Shown here piece after piece: positions 16,744 through 22,535 of a stretch of DNA of 64,000 bases. The position numbers and the translations under genes were made by a program. The notes beneath the pieces are model-generated. The model had not been told where the DNA came from, did no database searches, and saw nothing but the letters and a program-made list of their open reading frames with translations. The DNA lies in the NCBI RefSeq assembly GCF_003058085.1, contig NZ_QBUD01000008.1:62001-126000 (forward strand), in the 5' to 3' direction. Position 1 is the stretch's first letter. Every line of letters starts with the position of its first letter. The stretch is from Yoonia sediminilitoris. GTDB taxonomy: Bacteria; Pseudomonadota; Alphaproteobacteria; Rhodobacterales; Rhodobacteraceae.

Positions 16744-18051
16744 ATGATCCCTCGTTATTCCCGCCCAGAAATGACCGCCATTTGGGAGCCTGCCACCAAA
16801 TTCCGCATCTGGTACGAGATCGAGGCCCACGCTTGTGACGCACAGGCGGCAATCGGGGTGATCCCCAAGGAAAACGCAGCCGCGGTCTGGAAAGCCAAGG
16901 ATGTGGAATTCAACGTCGACCGGATTGACGAAATCGAAGCGGTAACCAAACATGATGTGATCGCGTTCCTGACCCATCTGGCCGAACATATCGGGGCTGA
17001 CGATGCCCGTTTTGTGCATCAGGGAATGACTTCTTCCGATGTGCTCGACACAACATTCAATGTACAGCTGGTCCGGGCCACCGATATCCTGATCGCTGAC
17101 ATGGACAGGTTGCTTGCCGCACTCAAGACGCGCGCCCTTGAACATAAAGACACGGTGCGCATAGGACGCAGCCACGGCATCCATGCCGAGCCCACAACAA
17201 TGGGTCTGACGTTTGCACGTTTCTACGCGGAAATGGACCGCGGGCGCGCCCGCCTTGTTGCCGCACGCGCCGAGATCGCCACAGGCGCCATTTCCGGCGC
17301 TGTCGGCACATTTGCCAACATCGATCCATCGGTCGAAGAACATGTCTGCGCGCAAATGGGCCTGACGCCCGAGCCGATCAGTACTCAGGTGATTCCCCGC
17401 GACCGGCACGCAATGTTCTTTGCCACGCTTGGCGTCATCGCTTCCAGCATCGAAAATGTTGCCACAGAGATCCGCCACATGCAGCGGACGGAAGTGCTCG
17501 AGGCCGAAGAGTTCTTCTCCAAAGGGCAGAAGGGTTCTTCTGCCATGCCGCATAAGCGCAACCCGGTCCTGACCGAAAATCTGACAGGTCTTGCGCGTCT
17601 TGTGCGGATGTCTGTGGTGCCCGCAATGGAGAACGTGGCGCTTTGGCATGAACGCGATATCAGCCATTCGTCCGTCGAACGCGCCATCGGGCCGGATACA
17701 ACGGTGACCTTGGATTTTGCCTTGAACCGTCTGGCCGGCGTCATCGAAAAGCTGGTCATTTATCCAGATAACATGCTGGCGAATATGAATAAATTCCGCG
17801 GGCTTGTGATGTCCCAGCGGGTTCTGCTGGCGCTCACACAAGCAGGGGTCAGCCGCGAAGACGCTTACAAGTTGGTGCAGCGGAATGCGATGAAAGTCTG
17901 GGAACAGGGTGCTGATTTCAAAACAGAGTTATTGGGCGACGCAGAAGTGACGCAAGCACTGTCAAAAGAGGAAATCGAAGAGAAGTTCGACCTTGGCTAC
18001 CACACAAAGCACGTTGATACGATTTTCAAACGGGTCTTTGGCGAAAGCTGA
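16744..18051 (+). CDS. purB: Adenylosuccinate lyase
   Basis: Cleaves SAICAR and adenylosuccinate in purine synthesis; cytosolic tetramer of the fumarase/aspartase superfamily. The 435 residues have the expected N-terminus MIPRYSRPEMTAIWEP, the catalytic His region GRSHGIHAEPTTMG, TSSDVLDT, and the superfamily signature GSSAMPHKRNPV. No purine genes are next to it. A long open frame on the opposite strand (16603-17841) is a codon-bias shadow. Confidence 0.98.
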   Translation: MIPRYSRPEMTAIWEPATKFRIWYEIEAHACDAQAAIGVIPKENAAAVWKAKDVEFNVDRIDEIEAVTKHDVIAFLTHLAEHIGADDARFVHQGMTSSDVLDTTFNVQLVRATDILIADMDRLLAALKTRALEHKDTVRIGRSHGIHAEPTTMGLTFARFYAEMDRGRARLVAARAEIATGAISGAVGTFANIDPSVEEHVCAQMGLTPEPISTQVIPRDRHAMFFATLGVIASSIENVATEIRHMQRTEVLEAEEFFSKGQKGSSAMPHKRNPVLTENLTGLARLVRMSVVPAMENVALWHERDISHSSVERAIGPDTTVTLDFALNRLAGVIEKLVIYPDNMLANMNKFRGLVMSQRVLLALTQAGVSREDAYKLVQRNAMKVWEQGADFKTELLGDAEVTQALSKEEIEEKFDLGYHTKHVDTIFKRVFGES

Positions 18052-18102: not shown

Positions 18103-18780
18103 TCAGGCGACCGGTTGCGCATGAACTGGCTGTGTGTGGGGAATATGGGTCGGACGCGGCGACGGTGCCAGATTCGCCGTTCTCACCTCACGACGTTTTG
18201 CTGGCATGCTCATTGCGACATAGCGGCGGCCATCGTCAGAATTGACATAGGGCTGGCCTATCAGATTCGCACCATATCCGAGTTTGCGCAATGCGCGCGC
18301 AAAGGAAGGCGGGCACAAAGCCATCATTTCGGTGGCACCGTGCTCGGTGGCCTGATCGACCAAACCGTCAACAATATAAGACAGACATAGTGACCGATCC
18401 GCATGTGTATCCACCTCGTCAGAGATGACGACCCGAGTACATTCCCATACCGTTTTTTCAACCATGGGTTGCTTAATGATGTTCTCGGGAATACCGATCA
18501 GCTTGCCGGCAACAGCGTCGCGCAACATGTAGGTGTGTGAACCCCATTGCGCCGTAGTGGCCATCGCCCGCGCGCCTCCAATGACCTTTCCGTCACGCAA
18601 CACAAGCGAATAATATGCCAGCGGATTGTCATACTGGTCCATTTCGACCGTCCCATCATGAGGAATATCCCATCCCAACTGGTCCACAAAAAACCTTTTC
18701 CGCAACCCGAGGAAATCGTAAAAGGCGCTCCCATACTGGTGCATTTGTGCTAGATTAAACGTAATATTTTCCATTTTCAT
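18103..18780 (-). CDS. luxI: LuxI-type acyl-homoserine-lactone synthase
   Basis: Makes N-acyl homoserine lactone from S-adenosylmethionine and an acyl donor. The 225 residues carry invariant LuxI positions: Arg27, Phe31 and Trp37 in RKRFFVDQLGW, Asp48 and Asp51, Arg71 in GGARAM, and Glu113 with Arg116 in WECTR. The position of the usual conserved Phe is in HTYMLRD. After the GNAT-like core there is a proline- and histidine-rich tail of about 25 residues. ATG 18780 follows GAGAGAC; a second ATG two codons later is possible. It lies 120 bases downstream of luxR in the same direction, with two inverted repeats between. Confidence 0.9.
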   Translation of the reverse strand: MKMENITFNLAQMHQYGSAFYDFLGLRKRFFVDQLGWDIPHDGTVEMDQYDNPLAYYSLVLRDGKVIGGARAMATTAQWGSHTYMLRDAVAGKLIGIPENIIKQPMVEKTVWECTRVVISDEVDTHADRSLCLSYIVDGLVDQATEHGATEMMALCPPSFARALRKLGYGANLIGQPYVNSDDGRRYVAMSMPAKRREVRTANLAPSPRPTHIPHTQPVHAQPVA

Positions 18781-18806
18781 GTCTCTCTACTTAGAAGCGA
18801 TGGCAG

Positions 18807-18823
18807 ACAAGCATTACACTTGT
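18807..18823 (-). promoter_or_regulatory. Candidate lux-type operator 1 upstream of luxI
   Basis: Perfect inverted repeat ACAAG-N7-CTTGT, 27 bases upstream of the luxI start. Its position fits a LuxR-family operator or repressor site, but it does not match the classical 20-base lux box. Confidence 0.35.
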
Positions 18824-18827
18824 TAGG

Positions 18828-18846
18828 TGTCATGTTTAGCATAACA
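18828..18846 (-). promoter_or_regulatory. Candidate lux-type operator 2 upstream of luxI
   Basis: Minus-strand reading TGTTATG-N5-CATGACA, six of seven positions paired, about 50 bases upstream of the luxI start, where activators that overlap -35 elements bind. Assignment is by position and symmetry only. Confidence 0.35.
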
Positions 18847-18900
18847 ATTTCAATTTGAAGCTAATTCTTCTGTGTTAGACATGAAAGTCGCGCTTGCCAA

Positions 18901-19509
18901 TCAGATCAGACCATATTGACTGGCCATAGTTGCGGCCTGCGTGCCCGTTTTTGCACCAAGTTTCAGCTTTGCATTCTTAAGCCGCTGTTTGACGGCACCT
19001 TCACTGACGCTCAACTCATGGGCGATTTCCTTGAGACGCTTTCCGTCCTTTACCATCCCCAAAGCTTCCAACTCGGCGCGGGTCAGATTGGTGGGTGGTG
19101 CGGTTTCATTGTGGCGTCGGGAGAGAAACGCATGCAAAAGCTTGGTTTCAAGCTCGGTATACTCCCGGTCTGCTCGGGTAAAAGATGCAAAAGATCTTTG
19201 CGCATCAGTTCCTGGTTTGAACACCGATATCGTCACGCCGTAGCGCATCCCAAAAGTCTTGGCCTGCGCAATGACACGCTTTGGATCGTTAGCCTCAAGG
19301 TCACTCCATCTGCAAGTGCCGACATTTGAGTAGGCCCACCTAACTACTGGATCAAAAAGCATAAACCGCTGCTTTGTGTAATGCTCCACCCACTCAGGAG
19401 GAAGCATGTTGACCTCTTCCATCGGGAAAGCGAACCCAATTCTCAGCGCAATGTAGTGTCCTGAGGGCGCGAGCTGCTCGATCTCCTCAGAACCCAGTAG
19501 TGACGTCAT
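18901..19509 (-). CDS. luxR: LuxR-family AHL-responsive transcription regulator
   Basis: A 202-residue regulator with an N-terminal autoinducer-binding domain and a C-terminal GerE/LuxR helix-turn-helix. Ligand-pocket residues are at family spacing: Trp40, Tyr44, Asp53, Pro54, Trp68. The HTH part (about 140-200) reads LTRAELEALG, KEIAHELSVSEGAVKQRL and KLGAKTGTQA. It is shorter than the usual 235-250 residues, mostly at the N-terminus. ATG 19509 has GAGG 8 bases upstream. It should respond to the product of the luxI gene downstream. Divergent from a related receptor lacking the HTH. Confidence 0.9.
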   Translation of the reverse strand: MTSLLGSEEIEQLAPSGHYIALRIGFAFPMEEVNMLPPEWVEHYTKQRFMLFDPVVRWAYSNVGTCRWSDLEANDPKRVIAQAKTFGMRYGVTISVFKPGTDAQRSFASFTRADREYTELETKLLHAFLSRRHNETAPPTNLTRAELEALGMVKDGKRLKEIAHELSVSEGAVKQRLKNAKLKLGAKTGTQAATMASQYGLI

Positions 19510-19647
19510 TCGATTACCTCGAGGCTTCGGTTTTAAACAAAAGCCTTTTTATTTTGGCACTGTTGTCTTTAGACTATTGATAAGCAACACCTAAAACTAT
19601 GATATTTCGTTCCCACTACACTTGGCAACCGGAAAGCGAGTTAATTA
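19510..19647. promoter_or_regulatory. Divergent promoter region between luxR and the HTH-less receptor
   Basis: A 138-base AT-rich gap that must hold both divergent promoters. It contains the palindrome CCTCGAGG next to the luxR ribosome site and a spaced inverted pair TGTTG...CAACA at about 19560-19590. No classical lux box and no TTAA-N7-TTAA CtrA site were found. Confidence 0.45.
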
Positions 19648-20136
19648 ATGTCCGCCACTTCCATCGAGATTAGCTCAGAACTTGGCAAACTGAATGAGGC
19701 CGCTCCGTCGGGATATGCGCTGGGATTTCATGTGCAGTACACCTCGACCAAGTTTCTTTTCCAGACCTACGAAAAGAAATGGCTGGACTACTATTCACAA
19801 CACGGATTGGTGATGGCCGACCCCATCGTCGCCTGGTGTTTTGAAAACACAGGTTATACCCGCTGGTCGGACCTGACAGACGATGCGGGTGTCTTGGTAA
19901 AAGCCGCCGAATATGGCCTGAATTACGGTGTAGTCTACGCAACCGACGCAGGCGGTTCACGCAGTATGGCCGGTTTCGCGCGCGATGACCGTGAGTTCAC
20001 CGATGACGAAATCGCCGCCCTGATCGCAAAGGTGGACCTTCTGCATGCGGCGACTGCCGATCAGGCGGAACTGTCACTCGAGACAATCGCGCAGTTGCGC
20101 AACATGTCGATTATGGTCACGCATCCCGGCTTATAA
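19648..20136 (+). CDS. LuxR-type autoinducer-binding protein lacking a DNA-binding domain
   Basis: A 162-residue protein that aligns along its length with the ligand-binding half of LuxR regulators. Pocket residues are at the same spacing as in the neighbouring LuxR: Trp45, Tyr49, Asp58, Pro59, Trp73, and YGLNYGV near residue 94. After the domain, about 20 residues (ELSLETIAQLRNMSIMVTHPGL) replace the HTH, and the frame ends at a clean TAA with no HTH-like sequence afterwards. It could sequester the signal, form inactive heterodimers with LuxR as truncated TrlR does in Agrobacterium, or act on another partner. fliG starts 50 bases downstream in the same direction. Confidence 0.85.
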   Translation: MSATSIEISSELGKLNEAAPSGYALGFHVQYTSTKFLFQTYEKKWLDYYSQHGLVMADPIVAWCFENTGYTRWSDLTDDAGVLVKAAEYGLNYGVVYATDAGGSRSMAGFARDDREFTDDEIAALIAKVDLLHAATADQAELSLETIAQLRNMSIMVTHPGL

Positions 20137-20186
20137 TAACGGACAGGTCTAACCTTTCGTTTACGACCAGTCGCTTATGATTGGGT

Positions 20187-21233
20187 ATGGATTTTCAACT
20201 TGATACCCCTGCAGACTCAGCACTGACGCGTCGCCGCAAGGCGGCGATGATCGTGCACATGCTGATCAGTGATGGCGGATCGCTGTCATTGGCGCAACTC
20301 CCCGAATCACTTCAAGAATTGTTAACGCGCGAACTTGGCGCGATACGCCTGGTCGATCGGGACACGGTGTCAGCCGTCGCAGACGAGTTCGCCAATGAAC
20401 TTGATGCGGTCGGCATGTCCGCCCCGGGCACGCATGACGGGGCAATTCTGTCGCTTGCTGATCACCTTAGCCCCCGGCTCGCCAGCCGACTGCGCGCACA
20501 GACGGCGCTGGTCCGAAATGGCGACTATTGGCCAACAATCGTCGAACTTCCCGTCGAAAAGCTCATCGCCATCATGGCCAACGAGAGCATTGAGGTTTCT
20601 GCTATCGCCCTGTCAAAGCTGCCAATCGCCAAAGCATCAGAGGTGCTGCAAAAAACCCAAGGGGAGCGGGCACGCCGAATCACCTATGCCATGTCACACA
20701 CAGGCGACGTATCGCCTGATGCGGTCAGGCGGATAGGTGCCGCACTGGCACAGGATTACGGCACCGCCGCAGAGGTCGCCTTTGACAAGGCCCCGGTCAG
20801 CAGACTAGGCGCGATTCTGAACTCTACCGTCACCGACACCCGCGAAGACGTACTTGAAGGGCTTGACGAACGCGATCCGGAATTTGCCAATAACGTGCGC
20901 AAGGCAATCTTTACCTTCAAGGACATTACAACGCGGGTCAAACCAACCGATGTGCCAAACTGTATCCGTGCGGTGGACAATGATGTGCTGACTAAAGCTA
21001 TTGCCTCAGCTCTCAAGGCAGACGAAGCGACAAATGCGGCTGCGGAATATATTCTCGCCAATATTTCGCAACGGATGGCCGAACAGATTAGAGAAGATGC
21101 CGCCGAGATGGGCAAAATCAAGAAAGCCGATGCAGAGGCGGCCATGGGCGAAATAACAAAGGCCATTCGCGAAATGGCCGAAACCGGCATGATCACATAC
21201 ATGGAACCAGATGAAGAAGACGAAGTAGAGTGA
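20187..21233 (+). CDS. fliG: Flagellar motor switch protein FliG (divergent)
   Basis: A 348-residue protein with FliG architecture. The N-terminal domain has RRRKAAMIVHML, the middle repeats have PVEKLIAIMANESIEVSAIALSKLP, and the C-terminal domain is clearest with AILNSTVTDTREDVLEGL, DPEFANNVRKAIFTFKDI, AVDNDVLTKAI and ANISQRMAEQIREDAAEMGK, where the charged residues that contact MotA lie. The EHPQ motif of the middle domain is not recognisable (NESI instead). It ends in an acidic tail. No other flagellar gene is in the window. ATG 20187 is chosen; the ribosome site is weak. Confidence 0.82.
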   Translation: MDFQLDTPADSALTRRRKAAMIVHMLISDGGSLSLAQLPESLQELLTRELGAIRLVDRDTVSAVADEFANELDAVGMSAPGTHDGAILSLADHLSPRLASRLRAQTALVRNGDYWPTIVELPVEKLIAIMANESIEVSAIALSKLPIAKASEVLQKTQGERARRITYAMSHTGDVSPDAVRRIGAALAQDYGTAAEVAFDKAPVSRLGAILNSTVTDTREDVLEGLDERDPEFANNVRKAIFTFKDITTRVKPTDVPNCIRAVDNDVLTKAIASALKADEATNAAAEYILANISQRMAEQIREDAAEMGKIKKADAEAAMGEITKAIREMAETGMITYMEPDEEDEVE

Positions 21234-21276: not shown

Positions 21277-21627
21277 ATGGAACATGAAGCCGAAAAAATG
21301 GCGGGGCGGCGTTGGCATGACATGGGCGGCGACGCCGCAGGGCCAGTCCCGACAGAACAACATGATTTCTCGCTGTGGGAAAAACGCGTTGATGCGCTGA
21401 TGGTGATCAGCTCTTCCAAGGGCTATTTCACCGTCGATGGCTTGCGCCGTGTCCTCGAGGACATGGGCGAGGAAGCCTTTGAAACAATGACATACTACGA
21501 ACGCTGGATCGCTTCGGTGAACCAGAACCTGCTGGAAGCCGGCGTTTACACCCCCGCTGAACTTGGCGCACGCATGTCTGAGGTTGCCGCGCGCGGCGAA
21601 ACCTATGGCGAGGCATGTGATGGCTGA
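21277..21627 (+). CDS. Nitrile hydratase-like beta subunit, N-terminal half as separate gene
   Basis: A 116-residue protein matching the first half of nitrile hydratase beta subunits: RWHDMGGDAAGPV, HDFSLWEKRVDALMV, VDGLRRVLEDMG and MTYYERWIASVNQNLLEAG. The Arg in YYERW corresponds to the beta-subunit arginine that contacts the oxidised cysteines of the metal site. The gene overlaps the next by 8 bases (ATGGCTGA). A separate beta N-half is known from thiocyanate hydrolase and toyocamycin nitrile hydratase. The alternative, a free accessory protein, is less likely because of the HDMGG start. Confidence 0.85.
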   Translation: MEHEAEKMAGRRWHDMGGDAAGPVPTEQHDFSLWEKRVDALMVISSSKGYFTVDGLRRVLEDMGEEAFETMTYYERWIASVNQNLLEAGVYTPAELGARMSEVAARGETYGEACDG

Positions 21628-21901
21628 GCGGCGTTACGTCCGTGTGCGCGGCGATATGCCCCCCGGCCACGTGCGCACACCCGCCTATCTGCGGGGCAAG
21701 ACCGGCTGGGTCGAACGCACACTTGGCCCCTTTCCCAATCCCGAGCAACTTGCCTACGGTGTTCCGCCCGCCAAACTGCCGCTGATGCGGGTACGCTTTT
21801 TGATGTCGGAAGTCTGGGGACCTGCCGCGGAAAACCCGCAAGACACAATAGATGCCGAGATTTACAGTCACTGGCTCGAAGAGGCGCCACATGCCACATG
21901 A
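21620..21901 (+). CDS. Nitrile hydratase-like beta subunit, C-terminal SH3-like half
   Basis: A 93-residue protein matching the second half of nitrile hydratase beta: MPPGHVRTPAYLRGKTG carries the second conserved arginine, followed by GPFPNPEQLAYG, MRVRFLMSEVWG and a short C-terminus with EIYSHWLE. ATG 21620 overlaps the upstream stop, and the end overlaps the alpha-subunit start, so all three genes are translationally coupled. Confidence 0.87.
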   Translation: MAERRYVRVRGDMPPGHVRTPAYLRGKTGWVERTLGPFPNPEQLAYGVPPAKLPLMRVRFLMSEVWGPAAENPQDTIDAEIYSHWLEEAPHAT

Positions 21902-22535
21902 TCATCACGACCATCTGTCGCCTTCGGGGCATCCCTATCGGGCCGACGACGATCATCCGCTGACCTATTGGCAACAAATGGAAATCGCCATTCGCGAGCT
22001 GTTGATTGAAAAGAATATCGCCACGGCGGCGGAAATCGCCGCACAGATTGACGCAATGGATGCCCGAAGCCCCGCGAATGGGGCCGCCGTTGTGGCGCGC
22101 GCATGGACCGATCCTGCGTTTCGCAATGACCTGCTTGCGGACGCCGGTGCTGCAAGTGCAGCCATGGGCTATGACATCGGACCAATGAAGCTGATCGCGG
22201 TCGAAAATACGCCAGAAGTCCACAACATGATCGTCTGCACCTTGTGTTCCTGCTATCCGCGCAACCTGCTGGGCTTGCCACCGGATTGGTATAAATCGCG
22301 CGCCTATCGGTCCCGCGCGGTCAAGGAACCACGCAAAGTGCTGTCGGAATTTGGCGTCACCCTCCCCGACGCGACCACTGTTCGGGTGCACGACAGCACG
22401 GCTGATATGCGCTACATCGTCATCCCCGCGCGCCCTGCGGGAACCGATGGATTGACCGCCGATGCCCTGGCCGCACTTGTCACCCGCGACAGTATGATAG
22501 GAACCGGCCTTCCCAAAACCGTGCAGGACAGCTAG
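21891..22535 (+). CDS. nthA: Cobalt-type nitrile hydratase-like alpha subunit
   Basis: The catalytic subunit, 214 residues. The metal-binding claw is VCTLCSC with Cys116, Cys119, Ser120 and Cys121; the Thr after the first Cys is typical of cobalt-type enzymes. It hydrates a nitrile to an amide or, as in thiocyanate hydrolase, acts on thiocyanate. The N-terminus is histidine-rich (MPHDHHDHLSPSGH), possibly for metal handling. RSRAVKEPRKVLSEFG and DSTADMRYIVIP are also family-typical. No nitrile hydratase activator, cobalt transporter or amidase is adjacent. Substrate unknown. Confidence 0.9.
   Translation: MPHDHHDHLSPSGHPYRADDDHPLTYWQQMEIAIRELLIEKNIATAAEIAAQIDAMDARSPANGAAVVARAWTDPAFRNDLLADAGAASAAMGYDIGPMKLIAVENTPEVHNMIVCTLCSCYPRNLLGLPPDWYKSRAYRSRAVKEPRKVLSEFGVTLPDATTVRVHDSTADMRYIVIPARPAGTDGLTADALAALVTRDSMIGTGLPKTVQDS

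Follow-up and report, generated by a model that had tools for sequence, protein, structure and literature searches.

The closest described counterpart of the quorum-sensing locus analysed here, which lies in a stretch of 64,000 nucleotides from Yoonia sediminilitoris (contig NZ_QBUD01000008.1, positions 62,001 to 126,000; hereafter the window) and encodes a full-length LuxR regulator beside a short receptor without a helix-turn-helix (HTH) DNA-binding domain, is the CerM/CerN system of Cereibacter sphaeroides. There, CerM works without N-acyl homoserine lactone (AHL), and the HTH-less CerN together with AHL strips CerM from DNA, restoring CtrA and motility (PMC11655674, 2024; this and all other papers are cited from excerpts of their text). 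CerN binds CerM only when AHL is present, and the authors suspect that the exchange W57F matters for the low AHL sensitivity of CerM (PMC11655674). To the extent of our searches, this is the only species in which the mechanism has been demonstrated. Another HTH-less protein is TrlR of Agrobacterium, which is 88% identical to its target TraR (PMC11655674); a 2026 review of LuxR interactions mentions TrlR, and the term CerN is absent from the excerpts consulted (PMC13043044).

The roseobacter literature has touched on loci of this layout from two sides. A luxRI locus of 'D topology' was named in six roseobacter genomes and its function called open (PMC3824088, 2013), and the gene order fliG, autoinducer-binding-domain (ABD) protein, luxR, adenylosuccinate lyase was later listed in Rubellimicrobium and Loktanella (PMC4338825, 2015). 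The latter work found ABD-only proteins frequently in the neighbourhood of LuxR genes and suggested ligand sequestration or a TrlR-like interaction with LuxR, so that both the arrangement and the brake hypothesis are already in print (PMC4338825). The excerpts of two further papers contain nothing on an HTH-less receptor (PMC6473078, PMC3907830), and in the open-access literature searched, no work was found to carry CerM/CerN over to the family.

In the window, luxI and luxR lie on the minus strand, the short HTH-less gene is divergent on the plus strand, and fliG follows it. The three quorum-sensing genes are:

18103..18780, minus strand: luxI-type AHL synthase, 225 aa, downstream of luxR (Pfam Autoind_synth, E 3.3e-14).
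18901..19509, minus strand: LuxR-type regulator, 202 aa, of the CerM clade (Pfam Autoind_bind, 1e-17, and GerE, 1.6e-9; clade support 100/100).
19648..20136, plus strand: HTH-less AHL-receptor-like protein, 162 aa, of the CerN type (Pfam Autoind_bind only, 2.7e-14; the gene ends in TAA TAA).

The Autoind_bind and GerE domains together place the window LuxR in the LuxR family. An earlier note, made from the letters and open reading frames of the window, had described luxI and luxR as sharing one direction, with a divergent 162-residue ligand-binding protein that lacks the DNA-binding domain and ends at a clean stop rather than a frameshift. The reading frames and Pfam searches bear out this description, with luxR upstream of luxI, and the truncation is both clean and old.

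The locus is a module of the CerM/CerN kind that is real, old and conserved, and it does not represent a new type of system. Its operation is probably that of a CerM/CerN-type two-receptor switch with its own AHL synthase. LuxI would produce an AHL, and at low signal the full-length LuxR would sit on DNA. Once AHL has accumulated, the HTH-less protein would bind it, heterodimerise with LuxR and take LuxR off its sites, and targets would then be switched, either by derepression or by loss of activation. In this mechanism the short protein would be the half that feeds the signal into the switch, and less a damper on it. The AHL binding, the heterodimer, the DNA binding of AHL-free LuxR, the direction of regulation and any link to CtrA and motility are proposed by analogy with Cereibacter.

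The correspondence begins with the Cereibacter-type loci themselves. Two genomes (G105 and G433; loci L127 and L130) have the published order of short gene, divergent CerM, CerR and CerI, and their CerM candidates carry F at position 57 and Q189 in a 200-residue protein. The published CerM site occurs as an exact 15-mer in both genomes and is absent from two other genomes tested; the CerM and CerN candidates of G105 share 31% identity, which agrees with the published value. A tree of 169 sequences, 7 genus loci among them, with CerR as outgroup and bootstrap values that had not settled, puts the proteins of these two genomes in the same groups as the window proteins. All LuxR partners, CerM candidates included, form one clade (100/100), and eight GtaR-like full-length proteins form a separate clade (96/35). 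The short proteins and CerN candidates lie outside both, except the protein of L138, which falls in between; the root falls among the short proteins, which makes their association with CerN a grouping and not one demonstrated clade. Small groups recur on both receptor sides (L121/L122/L126, L104/L106/L108/L111 and L099/L102/L105/L137), and such matching subgroups would be expected of a pair that is passed on as one unit.

In sequence the short protein is not closest to its partner. It matches the GtaR-like class at 42% identity and a profile score of 371, and its own partner at 27% and 298; the label 'GtaR-like' follows from protein size, the order of genes and PMC11655674 rather than from any named sequence. 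Among the classes compared, regulators of the GtaR/LuxR1 type (the 205-aa class) are its nearest full-length relatives, and unlike the short protein they keep the HTH and often stand in tandem with another type of luxI. Judged from sequence, the short protein is an old, divergent paralogue.

Both window receptors, which are 32% identical over 145 columns, carry W57, Y61, D70, P71 and W85 (TraR numbering), in agreement with the earlier suggestion that the AHL pocket is kept in both. The same residues are close to invariant elsewhere: all 102 short proteins have W57, Y61, D70 and P71, and 101 of them W85, and among the LuxR partners position 57 is W in 98 of 100 and position 85 is W in 94 of 100. 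Phenylalanine at position 57 occurs in 2 of the 100 partners, both Cereibacter-type, and we take W57F as a Cereibacter trait that does not define the receptor pair.

The distribution of the pair was followed through 395 Rhodobacteraceae genomes, including that of Y. sediminilitoris and a genus-mate (G015), with the short protein itself and with two profiles, one built from 46 short proteins and one from 33 LuxR partners, as queries. Counts are lower bounds, taken among the matches listed. We accepted 87 LuxR-partner loci, comprising profile matches down to 236 bits plus those in G080 (219) and G105:C2 (215); two matches at 215-217 bits with frames of 205-207 residues, and listed matches below 214 bits, were set aside as GtaR-like by score and frame length. 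The own genome (G000) and G015, which both have luxR and the short gene, are counted beside the 87. At least 77 of the 395 genomes have a short gene among the loci read, and one lies within about 4 kb of 80 of the 87 partner loci. These 80 pair loci are divergent in 74 cases and tandem in 4; the 2 called convergent (L132, L186) may in fact be divergent, as their open frames are overlong. Of 337 genomes drawn from the whole class, at least 5 of them from the family, only the own genome and G015 gave partner-profile matches at 1e-40, and the receptor pair looks confined to the family.

A luxI gene lies nearby at 67 of the 80 pair loci. The short gene is present at all 67 LuxR loci with luxI, and luxI is absent from all seven LuxR loci without the short gene (Fisher p 1.3e-5, a statistic that ignores phylogeny). 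Two of the seven (L175, L182) can still be recognised as the ancestral site by their fliG, and both the short gene and luxI are absent there. This association suggests, from few independent losses, that the short protein is a signal-input subunit rather than an optional brake. A more far-reaching proposal, which we put forward tentatively and hold to be somewhat doubtful, is that in the Rhodobacteraceae an entire branch of LuxI/LuxR quorum sensing relies on an obligate two-part receptor: LuxR would sense mainly through an HTH-less co-receptor that derived from a GtaR-like regulator ahead of the family radiation, and synthase, regulator and co-receptor would be kept or lost together.

Several observations weigh against the two-receptor switch and its generalisation. 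Clear co-losses number only two, the other five LuxR loci without a short gene being three extra copies in pair-holding genomes (L187, L188, L190), the isolated L189, and L185, whose contig is 4.9 kb long. No luxI was found near 13 of the 80 pair loci, one of them at a contig end (L071). A mirror-tree comparison gave r 0.68 for the pair, not above the 0.70 for the short protein and fliG, and its purB control failed; it provides no evidence of specific co-evolution and was dropped as uninformative. The window LuxR keeps W57, which is F in CerM, and given this residue it may sense AHL itself and behave classically. The CerM motif TNT(N5)AAGACA(N2)T occurs in none of 96 divergent intergenic regions, that of the window included; the published sites lie at other promoters. 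Finally, motility in P. inhibens needed no quorum-sensing gene according to the excerpts of PMC12363192.

The strongest competitor, which we consider unlikely, is a TrlR-like brake, in which LuxR would be activated by AHL and the short protein with AHL would form inactive heterodimers that damp or delay the response. It draws on the AHL pocket kept in both proteins, LuxR included, and on the precedent of TrlR (PMC11655674, PMC13043044). An optional damper would, however, be expected to be lost now and then from loci that retain LuxR and LuxI, which is the case at 0 of 67, and CerN, the homologue that has been studied, has an AHL-free regulator as its target. The short protein is moreover no near-copy of its partner, as TrlR is of TraR. 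When the earlier note proposed that the short protein blocks LuxR as TrlR does, interference as such was a plausible suggestion by homology to CerN, but a TrlR-like origin does not agree with 32% against 88% identity or with the greater likeness to another LuxR type. Its 'built-in brake' is doubtful, as in CerM/CerN the short protein with AHL carries the ON signal by removing AHL-free LuxR.

Much less probable is a role as AHL sink or buffer, in which the short protein would soak up signal and set a threshold while LuxR is left untouched. Nearly invariant pocket residues would serve such a function, and sequestration has been suggested for ABD-only proteins (PMC4338825). A sink needs no fixed partner, yet 80 of 81 family loci with a short gene adjoin the one LuxR clade, the sole short gene without a LuxR partner nearby being that of L120, and CerN does bind CerM.

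We give similarly little credence to another partner, whereby the short protein would serve a different LuxR or the fliG and motility side and its adjacency to luxR would reflect inherited linkage. This idea takes up the flanking genes:

20181..21233, plus strand: fliG, flagellar motor switch protein (Pfam FliG_N/M/C); the open reading frame list starts it at TTG 20181, and the in-frame ATG at 20187 is likelier.
16744..18051, plus strand: putative purB, the adenylosuccinate lyase gene, named from its place in the published locus type.

The fliG gene begins 50 bp downstream of the short gene in the same direction, and the own genome has four Autoind_bind genes in total, two beyond the receptor pair. 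On the other side, the pair is intact at 52 of the 80 loci with neither fliG nor a purB homologue nearby (fliG lies within about 4 kb of 25 pair loci and a purB homologue near 27), and GtaR-like LuxR loci had no adjoining short gene in the 8 loci of one reading or the 18 of another. The gene fliG is a neighbour that the pair does not require. It does follow directly, as the earlier note said; the adjacency is poor evidence for the link to motility that the note drew from it.

That the short gene is genuine is clear from the genus, where a short-protein match was found in 34 of 35 genus-mates and the own genome, always with a divergent LuxR-like match adjoining; the single miss (G026) is a genome 84% complete. 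The distance between the two genes reaches at most 1.3 kb, in one genus-mate. In the genus-mate G029 (L033, 504-1436) a transposase-like gene of 310 aa, labelled by eye, adjoins the short gene on the usual luxR side, with luxR about 1.3 kb off. Mean identity within the genus is 59% for the short protein (30 loci) and 78% for luxR (29 loci). The short gene is under purifying selection, with dN/dS of 0.03-0.33 and a median of 0.22 in 15 pairs with usable dS; the luxR median is 0.07 in 10 pairs. An AlphaFold2 model built from an alignment of 27 rows reaches a pLDDT of 90.5, and Foldseek retrieves as its best matches the LuxR-type receptors CepR2, RhlR and TraR (E ~1e-7 to 1e-6, TM 0.5-0.67); the sequence profile matches RhlR, SdiA, LasR, QscR, CviR and TraR. 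The closest titled relative, from Loktanella sp. S4079 (68%), has the same neighbours (L152).

The last helix of the short protein (residues 144-158) aligns to the first HTH helix of full-length relatives, and the protein therefore ends within the former HTH. Scanning of 102 stretches downstream of short genes for an HTH remnant gave nothing convincing, with a best E of only 0.34. Nine very weak matches (E 0.34-0.91, 4-5 bits) stand against zero in shuffled controls; they come mostly from loci of one genus, differ in frame and are read as noise. A recent truncation, which the earlier note had named as the finding that would tell against it, is rejected on the lack of a convincing remnant and the wide conservation. 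That the gene is a decaying pseudogene or annotation artefact, as its missing HTH and its faster evolution than luxR might hint, has a negligible chance given the dN/dS values, the genus-wide matches and the good structure model.

The intergenic region holds two elements:

19536..19550, no strand assigned: degenerate copy of a dyad, ACAAAGNNCTTGT, near the luxR start; the form is intact in part of the genus.
19622..19641, plus strand: 20-bp leader, TTGGCAACCGGAAAGCGAGT, just upstream of the ATG of the short gene.

Ten of 96 intergenic regions (L006, L008, L010, L011, L018-L022 and L029) have the intact dyad, ACAA-N5-TTGT, near the start of luxR, where it is a candidate local autoregulatory site. 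As a regulon marker the dyad ACAAAGNNCTTGTTG was discarded, as it has seven exact copies in 6 of 10 genus genomes, six of them at this locus and the seventh (L199) within a long coding frame. The window also holds a perfect dyad at 19565-19574, GTCTTTAGAC, which was dropped as well, being exact in only 1 of the 96 regions. Of 29 intergenic regions of the genus, 23 have the leader with no more than 2 mismatches; parts of it recur in other genera, about as far from the start codon, and its core pattern is exact only once in the own genome. It could act in ribosome binding with a bulge, as an RNA target or as an operator. As an operator it was set aside, with 7 matches of up to two mismatches in the own genome against 13 for the reversed control; RNA folding of the leader region was worse than that of most shuffles.

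Further receptor genes were seen along the way. Four genomes hold two pairs of LuxR and short protein (L072/L116 in G065, L086/L112 in G450, L073/L177 in G381 and L117/L176 in G157). Two 196-residue frames of Frigidibacter sp. ROC022 (L172, L173; 4827-5414) are of the LuxR-partner type (131 bits versus 98 for the short type) with no HTH seen, perhaps a separate, later HTH loss inside the partner lineage. Six loci (L127, L128, L130, L131, L180, L181) have a CerR-like regulator and, farther off, a luxI behind the LuxR partner, a layout that hints at replacement of the original synthase. In the own genome, a second luxR stands beside a weak luxI match of 19 bits (L191, G000:C3, 2945-4486), and with this neighbour the genome may be able to make a second AHL. 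Downstream of fliG in the window, the genes at 21277-22535 resemble those for nitrile hydratase subunits, judging by a CTLCSCY motif.

If the two-part-receptor reading is true, the textbook one-receptor model is wrong for such loci. If the rule holds across the at least 77 family genomes, it describes a general design instead of a peculiarity of Cereibacter, and quorum-sensing phenotypes of roseobacters with this locus need to be read with two receptors in mind. The locus is also a clean test case for a truncated paralogue becoming a signal-input subunit. As far as our searches show, the family-wide count of the pair, the greater likeness of the short protein to GtaR-like LuxR than to its own partner and the luxI association go beyond the literature.

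Set against the described systems, the window shares with the 'D topology' locus a luxRI flanked by an opposite-strand fliG and, on the other side, adenylosuccinate lyase; the locus section of that paper, in its text and its figure aside, does not mention the HTH-less gene (PMC3824088). The LuxR group 4 of PMC4338825 consists, in the excerpts, of solos without luxI, unlike the window, and no function is assigned to it there. With TrlR/TraR the window would share, by analogy, a LuxR-type protein that lacks the HTH and, through a heterodimer, interferes with a full LuxR, whereas TrlR is a near-copy of TraR, and TraR needs AHL for DNA binding. The likeness to CerM/CerN is closer: an HTH-less receptor is divergent from a full LuxR, the pocket is kept in the short protein, and the two receptors are 31-32% identical to each other in both systems. 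The differences are that the window has luxI directly behind luxR, where the Cereibacter type has cerR and a distant cerI, that its neighbours are purB and fliG, and that its short protein shares only 36% identity with the CerN candidate.

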